Shown here one piece after another: positions 1 to 12,458 of a stretch of 12,458 nt of DNA. Position numbers and translations under genes: made by a program. A model generated the notes under the pieces. That model was not told the DNA's origin, made no database searches, and worked only from the letters and a program-made list of their open reading frames with translations. Origin of the DNA: Cellvibrionales bacterium UBA4495 (lineage in GTDB: Bacteria; Pseudomonadota; Gammaproteobacteria; Pseudomonadales; Porticoccaceae); NCBI GenBank assembly GCA_002388905.1, contig DGNJ01000097.1, forward strand, positions 1-12,458. Reading direction: 5' to 3'. The first letter of the stretch is position 1, and every line of letters starts with the position of its first letter.

Positions 1-35
1 GAATCTGGCTGGTTGGTTAACCCGTTCCGTTGAAA

Positions 36-70
36 TGTTGCATCGCAGCAATCATGTTGCAATGCACAAT
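36..70. promoter_or_regulatory. TGCA-rich candidate operator upstream of phasin gene
   Basis: The phasin upstream region holds a dense cluster of TGC/GCA elements: TGTTGCATCGCAGCA at 36-50 and the near-palindrome TTGCAATGCACAA at 57-69. PhaR-type PHB-responsive repressors of alphaproteobacteria bind TGC/GCA-rich dyads in front of phasin genes, so this is a plausible PhaR site. The assignment is an inference from position and base pattern. No phaR gene lies in the window. Confidence 0.35.
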
Positions 71-147
71 GAAATGCCCTATATTGAGGATGACGCGGCC
101 TGCATTGTTTTGCGTTGGGTCGCAGCCAATCGAAGAGGAGATTCTTC

Positions 148-600
148 ATGTCGAAAACCGCCAAAACAGCAGAAACCATCGAATTCCCCACTTTCGACGC
201 CGGAAAAGCCACCGACCAGCTCCGCTCTTTTGCCGAAAAGAGCCTTGAGCAGTCGAAGGATGCCTACGCCAAGTTCAAGGCCGGTGCCGAGGACGCGCAG
301 AAGACGCTGGAAACAAGCTTCGAGACCATGAAGCAGGCCGGCGACGAAGTGTCGCTGAAAGCGGTCGCGGCGATGCGCGCCAATGCCGAAGCCGGCTTCG
401 GTCATCTCGAGGCGCTGATCGGCGCCAAGACCATCTCGGAGTTTGTCGAGTTGCAGACCGGCTTCGTGCGCAAGAATGTCGAGATGTTGGTCGATCAGGC
501 CAAGGATATGCAGGCTGTGTCGTCGAAGGCCGCCGAAGACATCGCCAAGCCGGTCAAGACCGCGTTTGACAAGACCATGAAAGACATCAAGGCCGCGTGA
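148..600 (+). CDS. Phasin family protein (PHB granule-associated)
   Basis: This 150-residue protein resembles alphaproteobacterial phasins, small amphipathic helical proteins that coat polyhydroxybutyrate granules and control their size and number. It is almost entirely helix-forming, rich in Ala, Lys and Glu. It has no signal peptide and no cysteine, and ends in a Lys/Ala-rich tail (FDKTMKDIKAA). The family core is seen around residues 55-130, with segments such as KAVAAMRANAEAGFGHLEAL and ISEFVELQTGFVRKNVEML. The ATG at 148 is preferred over an in-frame upstream ATG at 115 because AAGAGGAG lies 7 nt before it and the extra 11 residues (MGRSQSKRRFF) are unlike phasins. The gene is monocistronic: a TGCA-rich candidate PhaR operator lies upstream and a strong terminator starts about 60 nt after the stop. 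Family assignment is firm. Whether this is the major granule phasin cannot be told from sequence. Confidence 0.9.
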   Translation: MSKTAKTAETIEFPTFDAGKATDQLRSFAEKSLEQSKDAYAKFKAGAEDAQKTLETSFETMKQAGDEVSLKAVAAMRANAEAGFGHLEALIGAKTISEFVELQTGFVRKNVEMLVDQAKDMQAVSSKAAEDIAKPVKTAFDKTMKDIKAA

Positions 601-658
601 TCCGGCCTATCGATGCGCGGCGGCAAGCCGCGCCGATCCCTTCGCGGGCGCACCGTGG

Positions 659-686
659 AAAAAGGCCGGTTTCAGCCGGCCTTTTT
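659..686 (+). terminator. Intrinsic terminator of the phasin gene
   Basis: A perfect 11-bp stem, AAAAAGGCCGG (659-669) with CCGGCCTTTTT (676-686), encloses a 6-nt loop and ends in five T. It starts about 58 nt after the phasin stop codon. Because the A-tract and T-tract are symmetric, it could also act on the minus strand, but the only upstream gene in range is the phasin gene. Confidence 0.9.
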
Positions 687-768
687 CATGCGTTCAAACG
701 GCATGCCCGCCCTTGCATTCGCGGGAATTTGACCGTATTGCACTCCAGCCTTTCGCAAGAGGCGCCGT

Positions 769-845
769 GCGGTTGTAGCTCAGTTGGTTAGAGCGCAGGA
801 TTGTGGCTCCTGAGGTCGCGGGTTCGATCCCCGTCAGCCACCCCA
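769..845 (+). tRNA. tRNA-His (anticodon GTG), CCA encoded, unusual acceptor stem
   Basis: The cloverleaf is complete apart from the acceptor stem. D stem GCTC/GAGC is at 778-781/791-794, anticodon stem CAGGA/TCCTG at 796-800/808-812, anticodon GTG at 803-805, T stem GCGGG/CCCGT at 818-822/830-834, and CCA at 843-845. The acceptor stem GCGGTTG (769-775) against CAGCCAC (835-841) has a C·A mismatch at pair 2:71 and a T·G wobble at 5:68. The base at position -1 is T, so the G-1 that normally marks tRNA-His is not encoded, although C73 (842) is present. Some alphaproteobacteria lack G-1, but from memory those carry A73. Identity as tRNA-His is clear. Whether it is fully functional, or a 5'/3' hybrid made by integration at the gene's 3' end, is open. 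Confidence 0.93.
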
Positions 846-1361
846 AGTTTCAATGAGTTGTTTTGCAATTCATTCTCAAAAACCGATTATTCGAAACAAC
901 ATTCCATCATATACAGTCTGTCTATTTTACTATTTTCCATGGCAATTTGGCTTGAGGCTCGATAGCCACGGCTGAGGATCGGTTCCTTATCTTCATTTAA
1001 CGGTACCCCACCCTGAGCGGTTGGTCATTCCACCGTATTCAGGGCAAAACCCTGGCGAATTACCATCACAATGGCTCCTGCGCAGGTTTGCTCCGGCGAG
1101 TGTCCTGACGCCGATTTTTACCTGCTTTGACTGGTGATCCGCTCTAAATGGTCCGGGTTGGGTGCCGATGTCCCGGAGCGGTTCGTTGGAAATAAGCCGG
1201 TTTGCTACTGCCCGCCGATGCATTGCTTGGCAGCTGGCGATAAGACTAATAATGTGCTAAACGTACAATATATGGGATGGCTCTGAAGGATGTAACTCCA
1301 CCCCGTAGACCCAAAAATCGTATAAGAATCTCAAGTCACTCAGATTTGTCAGGGGGTCCGG
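846..1361. other. Intergenic region between tRNA-His and the metallopeptidase gene, no convincing gene
   Basis: The first part, about 850-940, is clearly AT-rich compared with its neighbours. The rest is of mixed composition with a small hairpin CAGGG-CAAAA-CCCTG at 1040-1054. A 76-codon minus-strand reading frame spans 993-1223. Its first ~20 residues (ANRLISNEPLRDIG) recall the start of small HTH/terminase-like proteins of mobile elements, but the remainder looks random, so at most it is a decayed remnant. The 3' part holds a candidate sigma-70 promoter for the next gene. I see no copy of the tRNA-His 3' end here. Confidence 0.6.
1227..1255 (+). promoter_or_regulatory. Candidate sigma-70 promoter of the metallopeptidase operon
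   Basis: TTGGCA (1227-1232) and TAATGT (1250-1255) are separated by 17 nt and lie about 100 nt before the ATG at 1362. A TACAAT at 1264-1269 offers an alternative -10 without a good -35. This is pattern matching only. Confidence 0.35.
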
Positions 1362-4300
1362 ATGGATCGCTTCTTCCTCCCCACTCCTTCTCCAGGCGCG
1401 CCCGTTCGGCCTCGCCACGACGGAATATTCCGTGCGTGTGCACTGCAGGAGCGCGTATTTAGGAAAGATATAACCGGAAAGCCACTGCCAAGACGCTGCA
1501 TCGGGATTCTGCTTGGCGCCAGCATGATCGCTCTGTTGCCGCTAATGGCGGAGGCGAATCTGTGCGATCCGGAAAAGCATCTGACGCAGCAACACCGTAC
1601 AGAAGCCAAACGCCCGTATGAAGAGCCTTACGGTCAAGATAGCTATCGCGGCGTGCATGATTACAATGCCCGCGTCATCGCCTGTAATCGCGCGAGGGAC
1701 TCATTGGGCCGGGGGCTCGAAAACATCGCACCTGCCGAATACGTGTACCCGAAAACAATGCCCCCGCGCATCGTCAGGGGCACCATCCGTTATTTCAATG
1801 TCGCTCCGAAACGTTACGGCTATCGGCTTGAACGTCAGGGCGGGACCTGGATCCTGACCTCAGTCGCGGAATTCCATTTTCCAGGCTTGAAATTCCCGGA
1901 TCGATTGGACATCCCGATGGCATTGGCGCGGCAATTGGGTATCGCCGACACAGTCTGCGCGACCACGCAAACCAAATTTGGCGGCATTGACCGTGGCCTG
2001 GTCCAGACCCCGGGCGGCTGGCCGAATGCCTGCCGGCTGAATCGGGACGAGAAAATCGACGGTATCCCAGTAACGCACCACCTAATGGAGTATTGGCGCG
2101 ACACGATCCAACGGTTCTGGTCGCGGCCCGGGTTCGACGTCCGCGTCAAGATCGTCAATCTGAACGAAGTGTCGGCGGAAGAGCTGGACGCGTTTGGAGC
2201 GGGCGTATGGCCGATCCGGCTCAATCACAACAAGAACTCCCGGCCCATGTATCGCGCCTCGCCACACAAGCCGCATCCGCTTTATGCGGGTTTCACGGGC
2301 GCAGTAATCGCCCATGAATTCGGGCATACCATGGGCCTGGACGATGAATATCCGGAAAAGAAAAATCCCGCTGATTTTCGCGACTGTAGGGCCCTGGGCG
2401 GTGACGAATACGCCATGTGTGTAACCCCGCCCATGAATTGGGCGGCCAACAGAGACTGGGCTAAAGGGGTTTATCCCTGGATTGTTACGCGGCGTTATGG
2501 TTTCGGTACGAAAACGAGCCTCGAACCGGCCGAATCCCTGCGAAGCGCCGATGCCGGAGAACATACCTCGCCACCACCGGACGAAGAGCAAACGGCCTCC
2601 GGCGAATATGTGGCGCCACTGCCCACGGAAGACCTGGTCAGCGAGAAAGCCCGCGAATTAGCGCAGATGGATCCCACTGATCCGGATGTCGAAACACCGG
2701 TTTCAGTCCGGCAACCCGTGGGCGAACTGCAGAACCTGGACCGGGACCTCAGCGGCAGTTCATCCGTGGAATCGCCGGCGTTCACCGATCCCACGCAGCA
2801 GGAACAGGGCATCCTTCCCGGCCAGCAACAGCCGGCCGGTGCGTCCCAACCAAAAATGTCAGGAGCTGCAGGTGGCCGGCTGATTGCGCATTTCCCGCTC
2901 GACGGTTCGCCATCGAACACCGTTGGCGAAGATGGGCAAATCTATGCCGAGCGTGGAGCTCCTCCGCAAACGGTACCCGGTAAATTCGGGCAGGCCTACT
3001 TGTTTGAACAAAGGTCGGTCATCGCCGCGCCCGTGGATATCGATTTCGTAAGCTACCCGCAACTCACCATCACCGCCTGGGTAAAGCTTTACGGGGAAGA
3101 TGGCGACGGATACATCGTCTCGACTGGTCCCTCCAGCAGCGCGCCCGGGCTGAGATTGAGCAATGAGCGCGTACGGGGAGAATCCGCCGGCAAGAGGCCC
3201 GTTCTTTATGAAGGCGATAAGGTTGGTGCCGACAGCTGGCGCTTCATTGCCGGTGTATGGAATTACGAAAGCCATACTGTGCGCCTCTTCAACGGAGCGT
3301 TGGCAGAGACTTTCCCGAATCCGGATCTTGACGTCGTGAAGCAAAAGGAGAGAAAACGCAACCAGCCCCTGGCAACGCTGCCAGGTGACGACGAGGCCGA
3401 GCCTCAGCGGTATATCTATATAGGCGCACTCAATTTTAAAGGTGGCTGGTTTGCCGAGGATGTGGCCATCGACGACGTGCGCATCTATGCGGGGGACATG
3501 GATGATAACGCGATTGCCTCCATACGCGACGGCGGGCCACTGAGAGTCGCCGGCCGCGACCAGATTGGCGAAACCGAAAAAAATGCATCCGCCGGAGGCA
3601 GCCCAACGCAAGGCAGCTCTGGTTTGGTGCGCGGTGTGCCCTCAGGGGTCAGGGAGAACCTGGATCGCCTGGCCCAGTCCGAGGAATTCCAGGAGGCGAC
3701 CGAAACGCAGCGGCGACAGCGGGAATTGATGGAACAACTTGAATCCGGCGGAAACCAGGGGTCGGTTCCAGGGGTGCCGTCGAACGTACAGGAAAGCACG
3801 GAGCGCTTTGCGCAGTCGGAAGAATTCCAGAAGGCAGCAGAATCCGCGCGACAGCAGCAGGAACTGATGGATGCGCTGGAATCCGGCAGTTCCACGGGCA
3901 CCGGCGGCGGAAGTGGTGGCGATGTCGATGCAACCGAAAGCGGAGCGGACACGCCGCAGGGAGGCGACACCGGGAGCGATACCGGCCTTGCGACGCGGCG
4001 GCAAGGGCTGAAAGCAGCAGGAGCCAAGCTGCAATATGGCGGACGCGTCTACCGCATCGGCGATATTTCCGGCAGCCGGGGCAGTTACGAGGTCACAAAG
4101 ACATTCCATCAACAGCAGGCGATCTTAAGTAGTCTGGGCACCACGGAGCGAAAAGACAAACCCTGTGGAGTTGACTTAAAAGGCAATAGACTTGCCGGGG
4201 GTAATACCGCTTCATTCGATATCGACAAATGTGAAGGAGGCACCGGTGGCGCTGCCTTAGATCAAATACCAACAAGGAGGATTTCAGATGCCTCGCAAGG

Positions 4301-4592
4301 CATTGTCAAGCTCCAGGTGTGCAGATCCGGCCTCAAGGCGGACAAGCGGGTCAAGGGTGTGCGTGTCACAACCAAGCGCATTAAGGACGACGGCAGCTTG
4401 GGGGTCAATACTCAGACGAAAGTACTGTTCGAGCGGGTAAATTGCGGATCCTGGGAGGGCCATTCGACCTGCGAGAACGGAACTGTTGCCACCGGCGTCA
4501 AAGTTTATTTCGCTGACGGTACACAACTGGCGCCGAGGGACTATCTGACAGGCGTTGCTTTGATGTGTTCCCAACTGCAACCGGTGGAGTGA
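1362..4592 (+). CDS. Secreted zinc metallopeptidase with LamG-like domain, duplicated helical repeat and Cys-rich C-terminus
   Basis: This 1076-residue protein starts at an ATG with Shine-Dalgarno AGGGGG 5 nt upstream. A hydrophobic segment at about residues 46-63 followed by MAEA (63-66) looks like a Sec signal peptide with an unusually long, basic ~44-residue n-region. The catalytic domain (about 80-385) contains HEFGHTMGLDDEY, giving H318, E319 and H322 with D328 in the third-ligand position (HExxHxxGxxD). M352 in EYAMCVTPP is a possible Met-turn, so the fold is probably metzincin-like. Residues ~390-500 are Pro/Ser/Glu/Gln-rich and probably disordered. Residues ~505-722 look like a LamG/concanavalin-type jelly roll, opening with LIAHFPLDG and holding LTITAWVKL and VAIDDVRIY. 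A 46-residue unit occurs twice at 758-849, then comes a Gly/Ser/Asp linker. The last ~190 residues carry six cysteines, probably in disulfides. It is probably cotranscribed with the next gene, 64 nt downstream. Substrate unknown. Confidence 0.8.
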   Translation: MDRFFLPTPSPGAPVRPRHDGIFRACALQERVFRKDITGKPLPRRCIGILLGASMIALLPLMAEANLCDPEKHLTQQHRTEAKRPYEEPYGQDSYRGVHDYNARVIACNRARDSLGRGLENIAPAEYVYPKTMPPRIVRGTIRYFNVAPKRYGYRLERQGGTWILTSVAEFHFPGLKFPDRLDIPMALARQLGIADTVCATTQTKFGGIDRGLVQTPGGWPNACRLNRDEKIDGIPVTHHLMEYWRDTIQRFWSRPGFDVRVKIVNLNEVSAEELDAFGAGVWPIRLNHNKNSRPMYRASPHKPHPLYAGFTGAVIAHEFGHTMGLDDEYPEKKNPADFRDCRALGGDEYAMCVTPPMNWAANRDWAKGVYPWIVTRRYGFGTKTSLEPAESLRSADAGEHTSPPPDEEQTASGEYVAPLPTEDLVSEKARELAQMDPTDPDVETPVSVRQPVGELQNLDRDLSGSSSVESPAFTDPTQQEQGILPGQQQPAGASQPKMSGAAGGRLIAHFPLDGSPSNTVGEDGQIYAERGAPPQTVPGKFGQAYLFEQRSVIAAPVDIDFVSYPQLTITAWVKLYGEDGDGYIVSTGPSSSAPGLRLSNERVRGESAGKRPVLYEGDKVGADSWRFIAGVWNYESHTVRLFNGALAETFPNPDLDVVKQKERKRNQPLATLPGDDEAEPQRYIYIGALNFKGGWFAEDVAIDDVRIYAGDMDDNAIASIRDGGPLRVAGRDQIGETEKNASAGGSPTQGSSGLVRGVPSGVRENLDRLAQSEEFQEATETQRRQRELMEQLESGGNQGSVPGVPSNVQESTERFAQSEEFQKAAESARQQQELMDALESGSSTGTGGGSGGDVDATESGADTPQGGDTGSDTGLATRRQGLKAAGAKLQYGGRVYRIGDISGSRGSYEVTKTFHQQQAILSSLGTTERKDKPCGVDLKGNRLAGGNTASFDIDKCEGGTGGAALDQIPTRRISDASQGIVKLQVCRSGLKADKRVKGVRVTTKRIKDDGSLGVNTQTKVLFERVNCGSWEGHSTCENGTVATGVKVYFADGTQLAPRDYLTGVALMCSQLQPVE
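3633..3908 (+). repeat. Two tandem 46-codon repeats inside the metallopeptidase gene
   Basis: Residues 758-803 and 804-849 of the metallopeptidase align without gaps: both begin GVPS, share AQSEEFQ and ELM, and continue with LESG. The units (3633-3770 and 3771-3908) have drifted at the DNA level, so the duplication is old and kept at protein level. The Glu/Gln/Arg-rich core of each unit is predicted helical, with Gly-rich ends that could act as hinges. Confidence 0.85.
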
Positions 4593-4656
4593 TGGCAAGT
4601 AATCCCAGTCCATGACCTACAGCTAAAAGGAATACTGATGCAAGAGGGCCGCTGAT

Positions 4657-6354
4657 ATGTCGCCTCTATCCGTTTTTGCCGCTGGCGCCATTGCCCTGGG
4701 CTCGATAATTGCCGGGCCGGCCGCATACGCTGCCTGCGAAGAGGAAATCGCTGAACTGGATCGGCGCCTTGCTGATCCCGGTCTGAACGACCGCCAGCGC
4801 CAGGTCGTTCAAGGTATGCGCCAGTCGGCCGATTACCTGTGCGGTGCCGGAAAGGAAGAAGACGTGCGTAACATGCTTGATCGGCTGGACACGATGTTGA
4901 ATGCCCCTGGCATCGGATCGCCGCTTCCCGGGCAAGCGGACACGGCGCCAGCCCGATCTGCTGCTGCGTCAAAACCGGAACGCCAGATCAGACAGAGCAC
5001 GACGGTCGATGCCATTCCCGATAAGGGCCAGTGGATCGACCGGCCGGAGGATATGTTCCAATACTGGTACCACGATGTCGATTTTTCGGACGGCAAGCTG
5101 CGCGTCCTGTATTCGACTTCGCCATCGTTGGAGCAGGGCCAGGCCGGACCCTGGACCGCCAATGTGTATGTGGCTGAAATTGCAGGAAATGGTGAGACCG
5201 ACCAGCATCGCCTTTACAGCAAGGAAGCACTGGAGACGGTGACCATGGCTCTACTTCCCGGCCAGGACAAGGTTCTCGTCCAGATGCGGGCTCTGGGATC
5301 AGGCAAGCCGGAGCGTCTCGAAGTCTGGTCCATCCCCGACGGAAATGTGCTTTCCTCCAACGAAATCCCGCACCCCCGCGGGCCGAAAGACGAACGCTGG
5401 AACTGGGCACAATTCAGAGCCATCACGCTTGACGGGAACGCGATTTTTACCACGACTCAATTCAGCGGACGACGCGCCGATCCGCCGGTCTCCGTTTCCG
5501 GATGGATGGAAGTCACGCCTGACGGCCAGATAGTCGGCAAGGGAACCAATCGCCTGGAACATGCCCGCCAGATGATCCGCTTTACGTTCCCGGCCCATAC
5601 CGGCGGCGCGGGTCTGGCACTCGACATCTCGGCGCTTGACGAGCGGGGGCTCAGCGGCCTGATGGAAGAGCCTGTCATTCATGAGGTCGGTAACCGCGAG
5701 GTGCGCGGTATCCTGGGCCGCGAAATGCGTCTCCTGATTACTGATTCCGATACCCAATCCATGACCCTCGGTCCCGACCTGGAACGCGATCTTATGTGGG
5801 TGGGGGAAATGAGCGCACCCAGGGATCTGCCTGCTACGGAGCGCATGGCGCAAAGCCAGGAGCAGATGCGTCTTATGCAGGAATCCGAGGTCGCATCCGG
5901 TGCGCGCCGTAATCTGCGCGTTATCAAGCCGACCGCGAAGGGTTATGGCCTGCTGATGCGAATCGTCGCCAACCGCAATATGGAGCCTCCTGTTCATGGC
6001 CAACACTTTGTCGAAATTGGGCTGGATGGCGTTCGCCGCGAACTCTATCTGGAGCCGATTGGCGATGATCTGGATGTGAAGTTCGAAGATTTTGCTGCCG
6101 GCAGGGACGGAACCATCTATCTCTTGGCCCAGGGAAATAGCCGTAGCGATTATGACGCCTTGATCCTGCCAATCGACAACAACGGGCAGCAAAAACCGGC
6201 AGTGTCTGTCTCCGTCCCCGACCGTGTAACCATTGATGAAATATTTGCAACACCCTCTGACGTCTGGCTGATCGGCCATGGAATGAATGAGGCGACGGAA
6301 AAAGTGTCGCTCTGGGTAGAGCGAGTCTCTTCAGGGGACCTGGCTCGGAATTAG
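4657..6354 (+). CDS. Exported protein of unknown function, possible beta-propeller
   Basis: I do not recognise a named family for this 565-residue protein. It starts with a clear signal peptide (hydrophobic 4-22, likely cleavage after AAYA at 25). A short helical region follows (26-83) with the only two cysteines seen, C27 and C62, probably disulfide-bonded. After a Pro/Ala linker (~84-110), the rest is beta-rich with repeated strand-turn units such as KLRVLYSTSPS, KVLVQMRALGSG and GTIYLLAQGNSRSD, which suggests a propeller-like fold. No catalytic motif is evident. The ATG at 4657 has AGAGGG about 9 nt upstream. The gap of 64 nt to the metallopeptidase gene, on the same strand and without a terminator, points to one transcription unit, so the two exported proteins may act together. 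A five-codon minigene (4638-4655) ends just before the start. Confidence 0.8.
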   Translation: MSPLSVFAAGAIALGSIIAGPAAYAACEEEIAELDRRLADPGLNDRQRQVVQGMRQSADYLCGAGKEEDVRNMLDRLDTMLNAPGIGSPLPGQADTAPARSAAASKPERQIRQSTTVDAIPDKGQWIDRPEDMFQYWYHDVDFSDGKLRVLYSTSPSLEQGQAGPWTANVYVAEIAGNGETDQHRLYSKEALETVTMALLPGQDKVLVQMRALGSGKPERLEVWSIPDGNVLSSNEIPHPRGPKDERWNWAQFRAITLDGNAIFTTTQFSGRRADPPVSVSGWMEVTPDGQIVGKGTNRLEHARQMIRFTFPAHTGGAGLALDISALDERGLSGLMEEPVIHEVGNREVRGILGREMRLLITDSDTQSMTLGPDLERDLMWVGEMSAPRDLPATERMAQSQEQMRLMQESEVASGARRNLRVIKPTAKGYGLLMRIVANRNMEPPVHGQHFVEIGLDGVRRELYLEPIGDDLDVKFEDFAAGRDGTIYLLAQGNSRSDYDALILPIDNNGQQKPAVSVSVPDRVTIDEIFATPSDVWLIGHGMNEATEKVSLWVERVSSGDLARN

Positions 6355-6416
6355 TGGCCGATCATACCGGGTTGAGGGATAGCGGCTGTTACCTTGTGCT
6401 GAGATGAGTTTTACAG

Positions 6417-6518
6417 GTTCTCTTCGAAGCGCAACCACCTTCCTGCCTATCCTGCCGCAATTTAGTAAACTGGCCTTTTTCAGAAGAAAGGGTTGATATC
6501 AGGCCTCTCGAAGAGAAC
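6417..6518. repeat. Inverted repeat in convergent intergenic region
   Basis: GTTCTCTTCGA (6417-6427) and its exact reverse complement TCGAAGAGAAC (6508-6518) lie 80 nt apart between the converging exported-protein gene and the beta-barrel gene. The whole 6355-6634 gap has no gene-like frame. No standard hairpin-plus-T-tract terminator is visible on either strand, though CCTTT/AAAGG at about 6474-6491 could form a weak hairpin. Confidence 0.5.
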
Positions 6519-6634
6519 AACTGTGACACCCGTTCACGCCTTTGATCTGGCGATCATGTTTAACGTGGTCTCATAGCTGGATTGCCCGGTTGTGTATCCC
6601 ACATGGCCCGTTAACCGGGTGTGCCGGGTAAATT

Positions 6635-7762
6635 CTAGTGTCGGTTCCAACGGAAGGGCAGAGAGAAGCCTAATCGATAATCCGGTGCGTCATTTGTCAG
6701 GCCCACGCCGGCATTGACGCGTAGCAGCAGCCCGCGACCGAGGATCGTGGACGAGGTTATGTTCAATACTGATGACAGGCTGTCTGTCCCGGGGAGCGTC
6801 CTGCCTTTCCGTTCAAACTCTTTCGAGTAACTTTGGTCCAGGGAAAACGTCAATGCTGTTTCGGGGCTCACCGCCAGGGCGGTTCCCAACGAAAAGTCAG
6901 TCCTGTCGCCGGGGCGCAAATCGTCGTCGAGATAATGAGTGTAACCGCCTGTCATGAGAAAAACGAGCGGGTCGTTGCGCCAGTAGGCGCTGAGGCGAGC
7001 GCCGATGCCTTCGCTGCCGGTTCCCAGGGACACGCCGTCTGCGCGTTCCTCCCCGGCGCCGGTGATCCAGACAGCCCGTGCCACGACACTTGGTTGCCAG
7101 TTGTAATTGCGGCTGATCTGTTTCGCCAGACCGATGGTTAAGTCCCCCAGCCCTGATCCGGTGCGGGTCTCGGTGGGGCGGAACCCGTCTGACGCGCTGA
7201 ATGAGGTGCTGCGATGAACCGTCCGGTAAGGCATATTGGCTTCGAGTTGGGCGTCGAACGGTAACCCGACACGAACGCTCAGATTCCAGTCCAGGATATC
7301 CCGTTCGACCCGCGGGGTCACGGTTGCCTGATTGGTAGCGCTCAATGCCACCATGGATGGGGATTCGAGGCGCGAATAGGTGGCCGTTGGTGCAATTTCG
7401 ATCTGGCCCGGCCTCATCAGGCGGGCGCCCTGCTGGACGAGGCTGCGTTCCAATGCTCGCTCGGCAGCCAGCGCATCCACCTCCAAGGCGCCTCGCGCAG
7501 GGGCGTTGTCCTCCGGTTGTTCATTCCCGGATACCGGTGTTGCGATGTCGGTGAGTTCTTGGGACGTCGTATTCTCCTGGAGAGAATTTTCCAGCATTTT
7601 GACACGGTGGAGAAGATCGATAATCACTTTGTCCCGCTCGGCGAGCTCCTCCCGTAATTGCCCCACTGTGACTGAATTACCGGGTTGGGCGAGTGTCACG
7701 GACGCGGCAGCGAAAAGGGATACAATGGGAAGTAAAAGGCGGTAGGGCAATGACAGTGTCAT
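6635..7762 (-). CDS. FapF-like outer-membrane export protein (coiled coil plus beta-barrel)
   Basis: This 375-residue protein has a signal peptide (cleavage near TLA-QP, 25/26). A coiled-coil segment at ~33-63 (LREELAERDKVIIDLLHRV) and a second amphipathic helix at ~92-115 follow. From GQIEIAPTATYSR to the C-terminus it is a run of alternating amphipathic strands typical of a 10-14-stranded barrel, with strands such as WNLSVRVGLPFDAQLEANMP and LLLRVNAGVG. Signal peptide, coiled coil, helix and barrel is the order seen in FapF, the trimeric outer-membrane channel of the Pseudomonas functional-amyloid system, and the adjacent FapD-like peptidase supports the assignment. The last residue is His rather than the usual aromatic, though the last strand reads LGFSLPFRWNRH. 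Its ATG overlaps the peptidase stop (ATGA) and has GGGGA upstream, so translation is probably coupled. A plain MetA-type porin is the main alternative. Confidence 0.75.
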   Translation of the reverse strand: MTLSLPYRLLLPIVSLFAAASVTLAQPGNSVTVGQLREELAERDKVIIDLLHRVKMLENSLQENTTSQELTDIATPVSGNEQPEDNAPARGALEVDALAAERALERSLVQQGARLMRPGQIEIAPTATYSRLESPSMVALSATNQATVTPRVERDILDWNLSVRVGLPFDAQLEANMPYRTVHRSTSFSASDGFRPTETRTGSGLGDLTIGLAKQISRNYNWQPSVVARAVWITGAGEERADGVSLGTGSEGIGARLSAYWRNDPLVFLMTGGYTHYLDDDLRPGDRTDFSLGTALAVSPETALTFSLDQSYSKEFERKGRTLPGTDSLSSVLNITSSTILGRGLLLRVNAGVGLTNDAPDYRLGFSLPFRWNRH

Positions 7763-8406
7763 CTCGAGTTCCCCATTGCGACAGGCAGCAGTACGGGAAA
7801 GTCTGCCGGTTTGGCAGTGAGTTGATTGGGCGGAATCAATCCATCCCGGCGACTGACGGAAAATGCTACCCGGCCAAGTTCGGAGAAGTCGATCCAGGCG
7901 GTGGCAAACCGGTGTAGCGGCAGGGTTCGGTTACCGAAGGCCGGATCCCCAAGCAGCACGTTACCGCCCAGTATCCCCCGAAACACCACGAAGTGATTGT
8001 ATCCGTGCAGGCGTATGGGAACGATGGCCGGTCTGAGACGGCGAAGCTCGTCGAGAGTGACATCGCCGAATGCCTCGCCGCGATAGCCGCTTCGCGCTGC
8101 GTACCGCTTCATGTCCAGAAGGGAAAAGCCCTGCCGGATTCGCACAAGTTCAGGATTGCTCAGGTAGGCTTCGCGTCGGATAAGCTCCAGGGCGACTTGG
8201 TGCTCATTTACGTTTTCACCGTGTTGATAGCGGAGAATGGTCGCCAGTGCAGCAGCCCCGCAACTCAGGTCGAATTGTTGCAGGATAAGCTTGTCGGATC
8301 GCGCTTCGTACAGGGATAGAACGGCTTGATCGCCAGCGGCCGTGGCCGGCAGGATTAACCCAGCCGCCAGGGCTATCAGCAGGAGACAGGAACTTCTAGC
8401 GAGCAT
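7759..8406 (-). CDS. Periplasmic C39-family cysteine peptidase, FapD-like
   Basis: This 215-residue protein has a signal peptide (1-24, LPATAAG) and a stand-alone papain-like C39 domain. C39 peptidases cleave after a Gly-Gly or Gly-Ala leader motif. Usually they are fused to ABC exporters, but here there is no transporter and the enzyme is exported. The oxyanion-hole Gln is Q43 and the catalytic Cys is C49 in QQFDLSCGAAALATIL. The His is H138 in GYNHFVVFRG and the Asp is D154 in LGDPAFG, so the triad is complete. The segments GFSLLDMKRY and LLGDPAFG are characteristic of FapD, the C39 peptidase of the Pseudomonas fap operon. It lies between the small GG-motif protein (57 nt upstream) and the FapF-like barrel (4-nt overlap), which makes the GG protein its likely substrate. 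Enzyme family is secure; the substrate is inferred. Confidence 0.9.
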   Translation of the reverse strand: MLARSSCLLLIALAAGLILPATAAGDQAVLSLYEARSDKLILQQFDLSCGAAALATILRYQHGENVNEHQVALELIRREAYLSNPELVRIRQGFSLLDMKRYAARSGYRGEAFGDVTLDELRRLRPAIVPIRLHGYNHFVVFRGILGGNVLLGDPAFGNRTLPLHRFATAWIDFSELGRVAFSVSRRDGLIPPNQLTAKPADFPVLLPVAMGNSR

Positions 8407-8463
8407 GATCCACGCACCGGGTGGATGCCCCTGCGGGACTGGGTCCGCAGAGGCAAACCGGTC

Positions 8464-8796
8464 TTATTGGGTATACCAGATTGCGGTGTAGTCGGTATCG
8501 CCCGGCGCCGAAAACGGCCCGGCGGGACTGCCATTGCCATCGCCGTTGGTGGCATGCATGGGCACGCGGACGTCGGGGCCGCCGACGGTGTAGTATCCTT
8601 CGATCCCCAGTTCGCCGCCGTTCTTGGCGTGGAGCACATTCTCTGTAGTAATGACGGGGCAAACAAAGCCCGTGGGGGAGGGCGCCGCCCCGCCGGTAAC
8701 CCTGTCCATCTGTGCGTCGGTCAGTGGCACTGCGGCGTGAGCCCAACCCGTGGCCAGGCCAGCAGCAATCATTGCGGTTAGAGTCAGTCGTTTCAT
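8464..8796 (-). CDS. Small exported protein with double-glycine leader motif; probable secreted substrate
   Basis: This 110-residue protein has a short Sec signal peptide (1-21, ending AHA). Directly after it comes VPLTDAQMDRVTGG (23-36), which matches the double-glycine leader type LxxxxLxxVxGG recognised by C39 peptidases. Cleavage after G36 would free a 74-residue product rich in Gly, Asn, Asp, Pro and Thr, with a single Cys (C46) and a final TDYTAIWYTQ. I do not recognise a named family, and no bacteriocin or amyloid repeat is visible. It is the first gene after an ECF-type promoter and is followed by the C39 peptidase and the FapF-like barrel. The consistent reading is Sec export, periplasmic trimming at GG, then release through the barrel. 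The SD (TAGG, 8 nt upstream) is modest. Existence of the gene is well supported; its role is inferred. Confidence 0.82.
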   Translation of the reverse strand: MKRLTLTAMIAAGLATGWAHAAVPLTDAQMDRVTGGAAPSPTGFVCPVITTENVLHAKNGGELGIEGYYTVGGPDVRVPMHATNGDGNGSPAGPFSAPGDTDYTAIWYTQ

Positions 8797-8839
8797 TTTT
8801 GAACCTACGTTTACTTACATCAACAAGTGTTGCCGGATC

Positions 8840-8859
8840 GAGGGATATCAGCATCCCTC
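8840..8859 (-). promoter_or_regulatory. 5' UTR stem-loop at the start of the small-protein operon transcript
   Basis: Read on the minus strand, GAGGGAT and ATCCCTC form a perfect 7-bp stem with a 6-nt loop. The stem begins 10 nt after the CGAA -10 element, so it would sit within the first few nucleotides of the mRNA. Such 5' stems commonly protect transcripts from 5'-end-dependent decay, and a regulatory role is also possible. Confidence 0.5.
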
Positions 8860-8868
8860 TCTTTCTAT

Positions 8869-8894
8869 TTCGTAAGAGAGGCACGTTTAGTTAC
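8869..8894 (-). promoter_or_regulatory. ECF (SigF/ECF16-type) promoter of the small-protein/C39/barrel operon
   Basis: On the minus strand GTAACT (8889-8894) is followed after exactly 16 nt by CGAA (8869-8872). The same arrangement, with the longer identity CCACGTAACTA, precedes the sigma gene at 10316-10341. It fits the GTAACC-N16-CGAA consensus I recall for Caulobacter SigF, whose anti-sigma partner is NrsF, as here. It lies in the gap between the NrsF stop and the small-protein start. Confidence 0.85.
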
Positions 8895-8906
8895 GTGGCG
8901 GAGAAA

Positions 8907-9557
8907 TTAGGGGTGGTTTGACCGGTGCTGGAGTATCAGCCCGATAAAAAGACCCAGGGTGGCAACCAGCAACACCGGTGCGAAATGAGTCAGCAGAATG
9001 TGTCTGGCGCCATACATGCACGCCAGTTGCATCAGAAAAGCGGGAATTCCGCCTGCAGTAACGGCAATGGTGACTGCGGTGCGCGGCCAGTTAAGCACAT
9101 ATCGCCGTCCCGCGATCCAAATTCCCACAACTAACGCCGGCGCGGAATAGAGCAAGGTTTCCAGCGCGCAGTGGGGCCGTTTGCCAACCATTGTCGATTC
9201 CAGCGTGGGGATATAAAGGCCCGCCACGTAGCTTGACAGCCAGAGCGCCGTGGCGGCGACGGCCCAACGCGTCAGGCCTGGGGCGTTGCTGCCCGGAATG
9301 GCAGATTTGAGTCCGGCCGTACCCGTGAGGGCGATCGCTATCACTCCGATCACGGTTTCCAGGGCAAAGCGTGGCACCTCGAGTAGTTGTTCCTCGAAAC
9401 CGGGGCGGAAAGGTTGAACGGCCAACGTCAACAGGGCTACCAGAACAGTGCTGAACCCCAGCCAAAGGGCAGTGGTTGCCGTGCCCGCGCGAACGACGCT
9501 GACCGACGGTAAATCCGCGGTTAACTGCTTGATCAGTCTGTCCCGTGGCTGATTCAT
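8907..9557 (-). CDS. nrsF: NrsF (DUF1109) family membrane anti-sigma factor
   Basis: This 216-residue integral inner-membrane protein has six predicted transmembrane segments, near residues 28-47, 65-83, 97-116, 133-149, 160-178 and 188-208. They follow a short cytosolic N-terminus (DRLIKQLTADLPSV) typical of DUF1109/NrsF, which binds and inhibits its ECF sigma factor. Two cysteines, C130 (KRPHCALE) and C180 (QLACMYGA), sit where NrsF proteins have the conserved pair that, in Caulobacter, is reported to sense heavy metals. The start at 9557 is preferred over ATG codons at 9626 and 9644. It gives the expected family N-terminus and leaves a 34-nt gap after the sigma gene instead of an overlap. 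Cotranscribed with the sigma gene; a separate ECF promoter follows its stop codon. Confidence 0.9.
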   Translation of the reverse strand: MNQPRDRLIKQLTADLPSVSVVRAGTATTALWLGFSTVLVALLTLAVQPFRPGFEEQLLEVPRFALETVIGVIAIALTGTAGLKSAIPGSNAPGLTRWAVAATALWLSSYVAGLYIPTLESTMVGKRPHCALETLLYSAPALVVGIWIAGRRYVLNWPRTAVTIAVTAGGIPAFLMQLACMYGARHILLTHFAPVLLVATLGLFIGLILQHRSNHP

Positions 9558-9591
9558 CAGCGACGCAACCTCTGTCCTGTCGTGGTGAAGA

Positions 9592-10161
9592 TCACCGCAT
9601 CGTCTCCAGATGCCTGCGCAGTTCATGAAGTGCACGATGAACACGGACTTTCATGGCAGATTCGGAGATATTGAGTTTTGTGGCCGCCTCCGCCATTGTC
9701 AGCCCCATTACCTTAGTGAGAACCAATGCCTGGCGCGACGTTGCTCCCATCCCGGAAAACAATTGTTCGCTCTCAATGAGTGCGTCTGCACCCGGTTCCG
9801 TAAGACGATTTTGCTCTGTGGCTTCCTCTGCATATTTGTCGTAAGGGGGTGCCTGCCGGCTTTGTCGTCGCAGCATATCGACACTTTTGTGGCGGACAAT
9901 CGCAAACATCCAGGGTCGGAAAGGTCTGGCCGGATTGTAAGTATGACGGGCTTTGTGTATGGCCAGTAGACTTTCCTGCACGATATCCTCCTCGAAACCG
10001 ATGGGACCCAGGCGGCTTCGCACGTAGTTCTCGATGACAGTACCCAGCCTGGTTAGCAATCGCCGATAGCTGGCCTCGTCACCCCGCTGGGCGTTGACCA
10101 TCCACTGCGACCACTGGGCCTCTTCTGTTTCGGTCTGCGTCTCGTCTTCGGCACTGCTCAT
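9592..10161 (-). CDS. ECF sigma factor, SigF/ECF16-like, partner of NrsF
   Basis: This 189-residue sigma-70-family protein contains only regions 2 and 4. Region 2 spans about 17-103, with FEEDIVQESLLAIHKARHTY (core and -10 contacts) and FRPWMFAIVRHKSVDMLRR. Region 4 spans about 128-186, with the helix-turn-helix LTMAEAATKLNISESAMKVR. No C-terminal SnoaL or other extra domain is present. Pairing with a DUF1109 anti-sigma gene directly downstream is the hallmark of the ECF16/SigF group. A matching promoter lies 155 nt upstream of its own ATG, so the gene is probably autoregulated, and a second copy drives the secretion genes. The ATG at 10161 has only a weak SD (CAGGCAGGG about 17 nt upstream), and a 39-codon reading frame ends 8 nt before it, so coupled translation is possible. 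Confidence 0.93.
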   Translation of the reverse strand: MSSAEDETQTETEEAQWSQWMVNAQRGDEASYRRLLTRLGTVIENYVRSRLGPIGFEEDIVQESLLAIHKARHTYNPARPFRPWMFAIVRHKSVDMLRRQSRQAPPYDKYAEEATEQNRLTEPGADALIESEQLFSGMGATSRQALVLTKVMGLTMAEAATKLNISESAMKVRVHRALHELRRHLETMR

Positions 10162-10169
10162 GGGTAACG

Positions 10170-10289
10170 TCAGTTTCGCCCTGCCTGCTGATTAATGCTG
10201 CTATTGGATATGAACACAGCTTGGTTTGGCTCGGCACAAGCGACAGCATCGAAGATGGTCAAATCGCGGTGTTCATCGATCTTTACCAT
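10170..10289 (-). CDS. Possible short leader ORF upstream of the sigma gene
   Basis: A 39-codon frame begins at ATG (10287-10289), about 27 nt after the -10 element of the sigma promoter, and ends in TGA 8 nt before the sigma ATG. Its product begins MVKIDEHRDLTIFDAVAC and has no signal peptide or membrane segment. It has no good SD, so it may be chance. Its position filling the leader, and the weak SD of the sigma gene, are the only points in its favour. Confidence 0.2.
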   Translation of the reverse strand: MVKIDEHRDLTIFDAVACAEPNQAVFISNSSINQQAGRN

Positions 10290-10315
10290 TTTGATTGACG
10301 GTTTCAGTTAATCTA

Positions 10316-10341
10316 TTCGCAAAAATCGGCCCGATAGTTAC
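10316..10341 (-). promoter_or_regulatory. ECF (SigF/ECF16-type) promoter of the sigma-nrsF operon
   Basis: On the minus strand GTAACT (10336-10341) is followed after exactly 16 nt by CGAA (10316-10319). It shares 11 contiguous bases, CCACGTAACTA, with the promoter at 8869-8894, while the spacers are unrelated. This is the arrangement expected for positive autoregulation by the encoded sigma factor. The implied leader is about 150 nt. Confidence 0.85.
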
Positions 10342-10989
10342 GTGGTTTCCGACAGTTGGAGACGTAAAAGTTTTCTGAATCGGTTCTGATTGATTGTAAA
10401 GCCCTGCCAGGTTCAAGACTCTTTCGTGTTGGCAGGTCGACACCGGGCAGCCGCTCCAGAGTCTTCTGTCCGAATAAGGCATGGTATCTGATCGGCCATG
10501 GGCCGGTTTTGTGCCAGGGGCGCAGGGTCGGGGGATTTGCCTGCAACGGTTCCGCCATTATGCAGTCGCCGGCCGGGAGGCTTTCGATCCGCCGAAGACC
10601 GATCCATAAAGTAGTAAAGTCAGTATGCTAGGTTCGGCCTGATCCATTTGGTCGCACCCTAAAGAGTATAACAAGAGGCCCTCGTTTCAGGGCAGAATCC
10701 GCCAGTGCCCGTCACAGGGAAACAGGTTCTCCGTTTGACCCGGAAAGTCATTAACAAACTGAACCCCCGTCAGTGCCGTTAAATTTGCCGGCTTACCCAC
10801 CCCGATCATCCGATTCTCAATTGTTCCCTGGATCGGGGGCAAACGGATGCTTGAAAGAATGGTTTCATGCAAGATCCCGTCCCCATGGCGGACCGGTTGT
10901 GAGACTGCCATGGGGGCAGATTGATGGTAGGATGCCGGGCCTGTGTGCCGCGACCGTCTCTGCTGACTTTCCCGGAAAACCGCCAACCG
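10342..10989. other. Intergenic region between sigma promoter and MFS gene, no convincing gene
   Basis: Reading frames at 10313-10558 and 10413-10607 on the minus strand lack a plausible SD, overlap each other or the sigma promoter, and have no recognisable domain. A hairpin GCCCT-CGTTTC-AGGGC at about 10679-10694 lacks a T-tract. The minus-strand frame running from the MFS gene down to 10687 ends in a stretch (NRMIGVGKPANLTALTG) that vaguely recalls amidohydrolase C-termini, but this is too weak to call. A strong inverted repeat lies at 10879-10917. Confidence 0.55.
10879..10917 (+). promoter_or_regulatory. Stem-loop or operator just upstream of the MFS gene
   Basis: GTCCCCATGGC (10879-10889) pairs with GCCATGGGGGC (10907-10917) over 11 bp with one G·T pair and a 17-nt loop. 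It sits 6 nt before the ATG at 10924, and the GGGGG that could serve as SD for that start lies inside the stem. It may be an operator dyad or an RNA hairpin that limits translation. Confidence 0.45.
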
Positions 10990-12291
10990 ATGCAAAGCCC
11001 CAAGCAATCTCCCGACACGCGCCAATGGCCCGCCGCTCTCGCTGCCATGGAGTTGCCGGCCTTTCGCTGGCTGCTGTGGGGCAATGTCGCTTTTTTCCTG
11101 GCCATGCAGGGCCAGATGCTGACTCGTACCGTGCTGGCATGGCAGTTGACGCACCGGGAAATGTCGCTGGCCTACATCAATATCGCCTTTGCCGTTCCCA
11201 TGTTCCTGGTGTCCCTTTTTGCCGGGGCCGTGTGTGACCGGGTGGAACGGCGGCGCCTGATAATGATCGGGCAATCCCTCATCATTCTCAACGAGGTTTT
11301 TATCCTCGGTCTCCTGTGGCTGGAACGGCTGGAATTCTGGCACATGCTCGTTGCCGCTTCGGTGGGGGGCACTGTCGTGCCCTTTATCATGCCGGCACGC
11401 ACGGCAATCGTATTCAGCGTGGTCGGCCCCGGGCGTCTCGGCAACGCTATGGCGCTGTCGGGCAGTGTGATGAACCTGTCCCGGGTGGTAGGGCCGGCCC
11501 TGTTGGGGTTTGTTGTCGATATTTATACGGTCAAGGGCGCCTATTTACTTTCCACCCTGCTATACCTGTGCGCGTTCCTTTGTATGTTTGGGGTTCCCCG
11601 AAGCCGGTCCAGGGATTCGGGACGAAAGGCACTACTGGCGGATATAGCCCAGGGCTTTCGTTATATTGCCGGTCATCGCCAGTTGCTGGTGTGCCTGTTG
11701 TTCGGCCTGATGCCCATGATGCTCGCCATGCCGGTGCAGAATTTGCTGGTGGTCTTTGCCGACGAGGTCTGGGAGGTTGGCGAGCGGGGGCTCGGTATCC
11801 TCCTGGCAACGGCGGGGATGGGGGGTGTCCTGGGTTCTCTTTGGATCGCCCGGCGGGGGGAAAACCCCCGCCGGGTAAAAATCATGGTGGCCTGCGCCGC
11901 TGGGTTCGGGACATGCCTGCTGCTTTTCTCCCAGAGTCCGTCCTTCCTTCCCGCCCTGGTTGCGCTGTTGTTGGCCAATGGTTTCGCCAGCGCATGCCAG
12001 ACCCTCAATAACACGGTTATCCAGTTACTGGTCGACGATTCGGTCCGTGGCCGCATGACGTCTTTCATGATGATGTCGTTCAGCCTGACCCCTCTGGGGG
12101 TATTGCCCCTGGCCTTACTGGCGGAAAAAGCCAGCGCCCCCCTGGCGGTCGCCGTCGCCTCGGTACTGCTGATGGTAATCGTCGCTGTTTTTTATTTCGC
12201 CAGCGGGACACTGAGGCAAATGGACGAATCGGTTAAAAAGGTAATCCGGGAGCCGGCGGAAGCCACACCCAAGGATATGCCGGGGGCCTAG
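10990..12291 (+). CDS. MFS transporter, EntS/MFS_3-like exporter
   Basis: From the ATG at 10990 the protein is 433 residues with about 12 hydrophobic segments. It belongs to the MFS drug/siderophore exporter type (EntS/MFS_3) that pumps small molecules out using the proton gradient. The loop between helices 2 and 3 carries a motif-A-like sequence GAVCDRVERRR (about 79-89). Further family-like features are FIMPARTAIV, the N/C-half linker (about 188-205) and RGRMTSFMMMSF late in the second half. The upstream starts TTG 10921 and ATG 10924 would add 22-23 residues that are Cys/Pro-rich and unlike the family, so 10990 is preferred although it lacks a clear SD. The gene stands alone, divergent from the sigma operon, with tRNA-Arg downstream. 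Substrate unknown, and no siderophore genes are nearby. Confidence 0.88.
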   Translation: MQSPKQSPDTRQWPAALAAMELPAFRWLLWGNVAFFLAMQGQMLTRTVLAWQLTHREMSLAYINIAFAVPMFLVSLFAGAVCDRVERRRLIMIGQSLIILNEVFILGLLWLERLEFWHMLVAASVGGTVVPFIMPARTAIVFSVVGPGRLGNAMALSGSVMNLSRVVGPALLGFVVDIYTVKGAYLLSTLLYLCAFLCMFGVPRSRSRDSGRKALLADIAQGFRYIAGHRQLLVCLLFGLMPMMLAMPVQNLLVVFADEVWEVGERGLGILLATAGMGGVLGSLWIARRGENPRRVKIMVACAAGFGTCLLLFSQSPSFLPALVALLLANGFASACQTLNNTVIQLLVDDSVRGRMTSFMMMSFSLTPLGVLPLALLAEKASAPLAVAVASVLLMVIVAVFYFASGTLRQMDESVKKVIREPAEATPKDMPGA

Positions 12292-12325
12292 AAAGGCCGC
12301 ACACGCCTGTATTGCCCTTCAGTGT

Positions 12326-12355
12326 TTGGATTTTTAACCGGGGAATCCGTAAAAT
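12326..12355 (+). promoter_or_regulatory. Candidate sigma-70 promoter of tRNA-Arg
   Basis: TTGGAT (12326-12331) and TAAAAT (12350-12355) are 18 nt apart and lie about 65 nt before the tRNA. The leader contains a dyad TCGCGAC (12374-12380) / GTCGCGA (12396-12402) that may form a 5' stem processed during tRNA maturation. Confidence 0.5.
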
Positions 12356-12419
12356 GCCTGCACTTCGCTATGTTCGCGACTGGTCGCATCAGACGGTCGC
12401 GACGGAAGGGGCATTCTTC

Positions 12420-12458
<39 letters not shown>

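Follow-up and report, generated by a model that had tools for sequence, protein, structure and literature searches.

Our analysis concerns a stretch of 12,458 nucleotides from Cellvibrionales bacterium UBA4495 (contig DGNJ01000097.1, positions 1 to 12,458), hereafter called the window, and the gene cluster on its minus strand. Five open reading frames (ORFs) are present there in the order given in the original prediction: an extracytoplasmic function (ECF) sigma factor, an NrsF-family anti-sigma factor, a small protein, a C39 peptidase and an outer-membrane barrel. This cluster is likely a minimal secretion module of the type found in the Fap system of Pseudomonas and the nap island of Neisseria gonorrhoeae: the small protein would be exported by Sec, relieved of a leader by the C39 peptidase and released through the barrel, under local control by the sigma factor and NrsF. 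The two-step export proposed earlier is retained, but the conserved unit consists of three genes, those of the small protein, the C39 peptidase and the barrel, and not of five.

Conserved three-gene module

The small exported protein, which is the candidate cargo, is encoded at 8464..8796 (minus strand); its length is indeed 110 residues, and homologues at E <= 0.01 number 252. It is followed on the same strand by the gene of a C39 peptidase of the FapD/FilB type (7759..8406, 215 aa; Peptidase_C39 49.9 bits, cut-off 22) and by that of a predicted FapF-type outer-membrane barrel (6635..7762, 375 aa). Adjoining module genes are separated by fewer than 60 bases or overlap, the C39 and barrel ORFs sharing 4 bases.

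Scanning genome contigs by pattern, with an alignment of the small protein, we obtained 12 loci. In eight of them the C39 gene comes after the small gene, and the barrel gene is next wherever the contig is long enough. Genome searches gave two more complete modules (L026 in G001 and L038 in G303), so that all three genes are complete and in this order in L015, L016, L017, L020, L026 and L038; in L013 the barrel is cut by the contig end, while L014, L018 and L019 stop inside the C39 gene. Altogether, the barrel follows the peptidase in 7/7 other loci with the window's GFVCP type of cargo whose contig extends there (six full, L013 cut). The claim of a five-gene unit has to be withdrawn: the sigma/NrsF pair stands beside the module in the window only and in none of the 12 other module loci (L013-L020, L026, L038, L039 and L090), where the sequence upstream of the small gene amounts to 0.9 kb in L017 and about 2.6 to 7.9 kb elsewhere.

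Within the sampled genomes, the module is rare and has a scattered distribution. Counting the window, the small protein was found in 3/369 genomes of the class sample (one of them, G228, with a weak match), in 1/398 of the phylum sample and in 2/112 of the family sample. The database holds at least 2845 relatives of the peptidase and at least 107 of the barrel (E <= 0.001 for both, with scoring limited to those candidates that had the most words in common). Among the named relatives are records with beta-, gamma- and alphaproteobacteria in their titles. The complete module of L020 comes from a contig (7422 bases) in a genome that bears the title Candidatus Bathyarchaeota archaeon; an outer-membrane barrel in such a genome suggests that the contig is misplaced.

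Two other accounts of the module's setting were rejected. As to a mobile-element origin, plasmid and phage records gave no match to the small protein, and no match in a viral contig was confirmed; the guanine-cytosine content of the window module is 0.53-0.60, inside the window's own range. As to flanking genes acting as partners, the neighbours vary from one module locus to another. Next to the modules of L016 and L019 (L016:6568-7737 and L019:556-2448) are a methionine sulfoxide reductase fusion (PMSR + SelR) and a chemoreceptor containing a globin, neighbours that perhaps hint at redox stress.

Predicted signal, leader and mature domain of the small protein

The small protein appears to be a precursor with two N-terminal tags. 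Residues 1-21 (codons at 8734..8796, minus strand) form a likely Sec signal peptide, recognised by eye from MKR, a hydrophobic stretch and AHA. Residues 22-36, AVPLTDAQMDRVTGG (8689..8733, minus strand), carry a leader of the double-glycine type, LTDAQMDRVTGG, and residues 37-110 (8467..8688, minus strand) make up the predicted mature domain of 74 residues, which is acidic (isoelectric point (pI) 4.4, charge -5) and contains one cysteine. The protein has no Pfam match over cut-off and no match in NCBIfam or PHROGs.

Among the best 120 of the 252 homologues, the leader motif lies between the N-terminus and the domain in 115, and three of the five listed homologues lacking it start within the leader. 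The spacing is strict: in 112 of the 115 leader-bearing homologues the leader ends exactly 6 residues ahead of the (G)FVCP match. The mature domain is strongly conserved (GFVCPVI ... YT..GP..VP..ATNG.G..P ... PGDT.YTAIW) and acidic, with a median pI of 4.4, and a single cysteine is found in 103 of the 120.

The presence of the leader coincides with that of the peptidase. All 11 copies adjoining a C39 gene bear it, compared to none of four orphan copies of the domain (Fisher 7e-4). These orphans, in records titled Sphingomonas (L021:7788-8219), Zambryskibacteria (L022:7893-8204), Parcubacteria (L023:2256-2597) and Dehalococcoidia (L024:4473-4790), have the domain close after a signal-like N-terminus, with no leader motif and with no C39 or barrel gene in the stretch examined. 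The L022 copy adjoins a cupredoxin-like gene.

The opposite arrangement was observed as well. L090 (in G193) encodes four cargos and L039 (in G228) three, with one kind of leader and different mature parts. The four of L090 are tandem small exported proteins upstream of a window-type C39 peptidase and barrel (L090:5199-6986), and their mature parts are, by eye, largely low-complexity and rich in Ala, Tyr or Ser. A search of the class sample with a C39 alignment gave matches in 63/369 genomes, with four scores set apart at 327, 319, 318 and 269 bits and the next one at 163; L090 and L039 account for two of these four. Their peptidases belong to the clade of the window enzyme. A midpoint-rooted FastTree phylogeny built from 37 C39 proteins groups the ten window-type enzymes in a single clade (support 0.865). 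Inside this clade the L090 enzyme nests among those with GFVCP cargos, branching between the window enzyme and the remaining seven (supports 0.82 and 0.876). This position suggests, with moderate support, that cargos have been exchanged.

The leader was also sought as a pattern, and the resulting counts are descriptive. A stricter form, applied to ORFs of at least 45 aa on the upstream side only, matched 10/114 ORFs near C39 genes and 0/3191 elsewhere. It was loosened because it missed the window's own VTGG; the loosened form (ORFs of at least 80 aa, within 2.6 kb, same strand) matched 18/111 same-strand ORFs near window-type C39 genes, 1/1452 other ORFs and 0.0 in shuffled sequences. The lone match among the other ORFs, in L091, also adjoins a C39 gene.

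One could argue that the domain freed by C39 remains periplasmic and serves there as a buffer, while the barrel channels something else. The orphan homologues favour such maturation without secretion, since the domain can work without this channel. Gene clusters of the Buf1 type, which encode copper-chelating bufferins, also contain sigma/NrsF genes according to the available part of the source (PMC12452194). However, the regular succession of C39 and barrel genes described above extends to L039 and L090, where the cargos differ, and the closest solved relative of the barrel is a secretion pore. Thus we regard periplasmic retention as unlikely and keep secretion as the preferred explanation.

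The C39 peptidase and the barrel

The catalytic residues Q43, C49, H138 and D154 of the window peptidase sit where they had been located from the translation, and the corresponding Gln, Cys, His and Asp of the C39 family are invariant in all 24 aligned sequences, the window's included. A likely signal peptide is visible by eye at the N-terminus. FapD is the best NCBIfam model at 96.2 bits, under its equivalog cut-off of 330, and FilB reaches 92.4 bits. Judged by these matches, the window peptidase is a FapD/FilB-type C39 enzyme.

The barrel protein matches a Phenol_MetA_deg-type family of Pfam (28.8 bits, cut-off 22). FapF is its best NCBIfam model, at 34.6 bits against an equivalog cut-off of 700. 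Its parts are a signal peptide (by eye), a helix at residues 33-66 (putative coiled coil), a helix at 97-110 (plug) and a barrel from residue 120. The structure model (predicted local distance difference test score (pLDDT) 85.7, predicted template modelling score (pTM) 0.72) has FapF as its best PDB match by both Foldseek and VIA-align. The modeled plug helix and barrel agree with FapF in fold, as had been expected of a FapF-like protein, while the modeled helix 33-66 is outside the range covered by this comparison. The window barrel, as modeled, has the FapF fold. In the profile comparison suggested originally, FapD and FapF are the best NCBIfam models, but both scores are far below the equivalog cut-offs.

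The FapD/FapF-type machinery and the low-complexity cargos of L090 could speak for a Fap-type fibre system with the small protein as an unusual surface or amyloid subunit. However, the window cargo shows by eye no repeats and few asparagines and glutamines (5/74), and the machinery falls short of the two equivalog cut-offs. No FapA, FapB, FapC or FapE gene was recognised among the nine window proteins scanned against Pfam and NCBIfam, in line with the predicted lack of amyloid subunits. We consider a fibre system very improbable and prefer the secretion of a small cargo.

The sigma/NrsF switch and its predicted promoter sites

The two remaining genes of the cluster encode an ECF sigma factor (9592..10161, minus strand, 189 aa; Sigma70_r2 42.7 bits, Sigma70_r4_2 36.8 bits) and an NrsF-family membrane anti-sigma factor (8907..9557, minus strand, 216 aa; PF06532 36.8 bits, cut-off 26.8). 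The frame of the latter spans 8907-9644, with the first in-frame GTG at 9644; the ATG at 9557, from which the protein begins MNQPRDRLIKQL, is the likelier start, because the homologue in G254 aligns over residues 1-207. Two conserved cysteines of Caulobacter NrsF are important in responding to chromium and cadmium, as described in the available part of the source (PMC3511200), and both NrsF cysteines align across the window protein and two homologues.

Two sites resembling the published Caulobacter sigma-F motif, GTAACC-N16-CGAA (PMC3511200, same part), were predicted on the minus strand. Both read GTAACT-N16-CGAA and deviate from the motif by one mismatch, at position 6. One site (10316..10341), whose start precedes the sigma ATG by 180 bases, would serve the sigma/NrsF pair; the other (8869..8894) starts 98 bases ahead of the small gene and would serve the export operon. 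Perfect matches to GTAAC-N17-CGAA number 2 in the window, compared to 0.03 expected, and two were seen in 0/200 shuffles. No standard sigma-70 promoters were found in 6300-10600.

When the 350 bases upstream of ten other GFVCP modules and of four orphans were scanned for GTAAC-N(16-18)-CG(A/T)A, no site emerged. Of the genome-wide matches to the promoter pattern, four were examined, in three further regions, and all of these lie inside long ORFs. NrsF was found in 3/274 genomes of the class, the window's included, and the 12-13 kb stretches with the other two sigma/NrsF pairs (G254 and G096) gave no match to C39, barrel or small protein. Absence of NrsF from the six-frame genome search with PF06532 is meaningless, since that search missed the window's own NrsF (8907-9557), which is over the Pfam cut-off in hmmscan; this is a gap in sensitivity. 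Sigma/NrsF pairs were also noted in L113 (4225-6386) and L114 (4127-6038), each beside one protein of about 180-260 aa that is exported by eye; in L114, sigma is preceded by two divergent sites of the GTAAC...CGTA type.

The switch looks like a local acquisition, probably self-regulated and acting on the window module. Control of export by sigma/NrsF, as read earlier, is supported by the promoter pair in the window, but it is not conserved with the module.

Other genes of the window

Two large, probably exported proteins are encoded on the plus strand at 1362-4592 and 4657-6354, converging on the barrel gene. The first contains HEFGHTMGLDDEY, a zinc-metalloprotease-like site, and has a weak LamG-like match under the cut-off; the second has no family match. 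A tRNA gene lies at 769-842 on the plus strand (Rfam RF00005, 62 bits).

Proposed mechanism and its weight

The signal-like N-terminus suggests that the small precursor passes the inner membrane via Sec. In the periplasm, the C39 peptidase would cut off the leader behind the double glycine and set free the acidic one-cysteine domain, which would then leave the cell, probably unfolded, via the FapF-type barrel (a trimer in Fap). The promoter sites point to transcription of the operon by the adjacent ECF sigma factor, which NrsF would hold at the membrane until an envelope signal, for example a thiol-reactive metal as in Caulobacter, releases it. The released domain would most likely act outside the cell. 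That the cargo is a stress-induced metal- or thiol-active protein is a tentative guess from the regulator and the single cysteine, and we would give it rather low odds.

Several points weigh against this mechanism. Export, cleavage and passage through the barrel are deduced from sequence and a structure model. In the stretches examined of four genomes the domain is present although leader, C39 and barrel are all missing, so that the machinery is not always needed for it. The leader patterns were composed after viewing the sequences, which makes their counts descriptive and not blind tests, and 11/13 window-type loci belong to the cargo family that gave the patterns. The structure model of the small protein is poor (pLDDT 55); neither its fold nor metal binding can be read from it. 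As for the regulator, phmmer (E <= 1e-3) gave no match to the window sigma or NrsF in any of the 12 other module loci, and a genome-wide regulon was rejected, as the promoter pattern gave 16 matches compared to 18 for its reversed control. Even so, we hold the two-step secretion module to be the likely explanation.

Relation to FapE and a broader class

According to the parts of Rouse et al. 2017 available (PMC5557850), FapD is active in the periplasm and its active-site cysteine is required for FapC secretion; the target of FapD was left unclear, and the Fap proteins are stated to lack canonical C39 sites. Among them, FapE alone showed complete processing of the N-terminus. The gene order there is fapABCDEF.

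Five loci from genomes of the window's own family (L027-L031) resemble Fap operons. L028, the only one of them scored against FapD and FapF, reaches 266 bits for FapD with its C39 gene and 371 for FapF with its barrel, both under the cut-offs. In these loci the product of the gene after C39, which holds the fapE position, starts with a signal-like N-terminus and continues with motifs of the type ELxxIRG(K/M), for example LSINELSEIRGK or LSEAELSAIRGM. An ELxxhRG(G/K/R/M)-type motif is present near C39 in 17/27 Fap/Fil-like loci, which are a subset of all C39 matches. In its first form the pattern matched 13/148 ORFs near C39 and 0/1415 elsewhere; widened by adding R and further letters, it matched 22/148 ORFs within 1.5 kb of C39, 0/1415 elsewhere and 0.16 in shuffles. 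One of the near matches lies in the L094 barrel and is probably coiled coil rather than leader. The motif was not found in 10/27 loci (L032, L033, L034, L091, L097, L104, L105, L107, L108 and L109), of which L105 has by eye LDDEMLDTLRGGF and L091 a window-type leader.

Cleavage of FapE at the ELxxhRG site would fit both the motif and the published processing of FapE. It could be that a periplasmic C39 peptidase and a FapF-type barrel define a broad class of secretion systems whose substrates carry a Sec signal and then a GG/RG-type leader, LSxAQMDxVxAGG in the window branch and LSxxELxxhRG(K/R/G) in FapE-type proteins, with FapE as a substrate of FapD; we lean slightly towards this generalisation. 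If the leader, and not the cargo, marks the substrate, cargos can be exchanged and leaderless domains fall outside the system.

The window module would then be the simplest form of the FapD-target question, with one peptidase, one barrel and one cargo bearing an explicit leader. Nature supplies the controls: the cargo domain is leaderless where the machinery is unseen, and other cargos bear the leader where the machinery is present. By pointing to the matching ELxxhRG site in FapE-type proteins, the module makes the open question of the FapD target testable. It possibly represents a compact, leader-addressed secretion route for small proteins of Gram-negative bacteria.

Comparison with known systems

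Fap of Pseudomonas and the nap island are the closest published systems. With Fap the module shares a C39 peptidase that has a likely signal peptide, and a barrel whose modeled plug helix and fold are those of FapF; the helix at 33-66 is a candidate for the coiled coil. The differences are a short acidic cargo without amyloid repeats (by eye), the lack of recognised FapA, FapB, FapC and FapE, and scores of 96 of 330 for FapD and 35 of 700 for FapF. The putative pilus system FilB/FilC (NF050078, NF050079) draws on the same wider C39 and barrel families (92 and 27 bits), but the window scores are far under the curated cut-offs of 475 and 630; a literature search on FilB/FilC found nothing. In peptidase-containing ATP-binding cassette transporters, which export class II microcins and bacteriocins, a cytoplasmic C39 domain fused to the transporter cuts at the double-glycine leader. 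Contrastingly, the window C39 peptidase stands alone with a signal-like N-terminus, and its cargo has a signal-like N-terminus of its own.

The regulator resembles sigma-F/NrsF of Caulobacter crescentus in having an ECF sigma factor gene followed by NrsF, two conserved cysteines and the GTAACC-N16-CGAA motif. As far as the available part of the source goes (PMC3511200), sigma-F serves another small regulon there, whereas the window has GTAACT and an export module downstream.

In the nap island of N. gonorrhoeae (NapABC, NapP, NapF) a single locus encodes small peptides with a GG motif together with a C39 peptidase and a homologue of FapF (PMC11798529, available in part, as for all statements on nap), and the same composition is found in the window and its six complete relatives. 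This likeness in three kinds of components invites the view of a bacteriocin-like or self-lysis peptide system. However, the nap peptides are cationic, with 16-36 mature residues and a pI of 9 to 10.1, whereas the strongly conserved window cargo has 74 residues and a pI of 4.4 and is thus no cationic mature peptide of fewer than 40 residues. The nap island has napI, napH and napR in addition, and napP and napF lie at its opposite ends, unlike the adjacent module genes of the window; the available text makes no mention of sigma/NrsF. A peptide system of this sort is highly doubtful, and secretion of a conserved acidic domain remains the reading that we favour.

Among the titles and abstract starts listed in a literature search, with supplements, most subscription journals and bioRxiv outside it, none described the small-protein family with C39 and barrel. 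Since nap, in the part of its description available, already brings these three kinds of component together, the kind of system is known. What is new, as far as we have seen, is the conserved acidic domain as cargo, the explicit two-tag precursor with its natural controls, the use of one kind of leader by different cargos, and control by sigma-F/NrsF.

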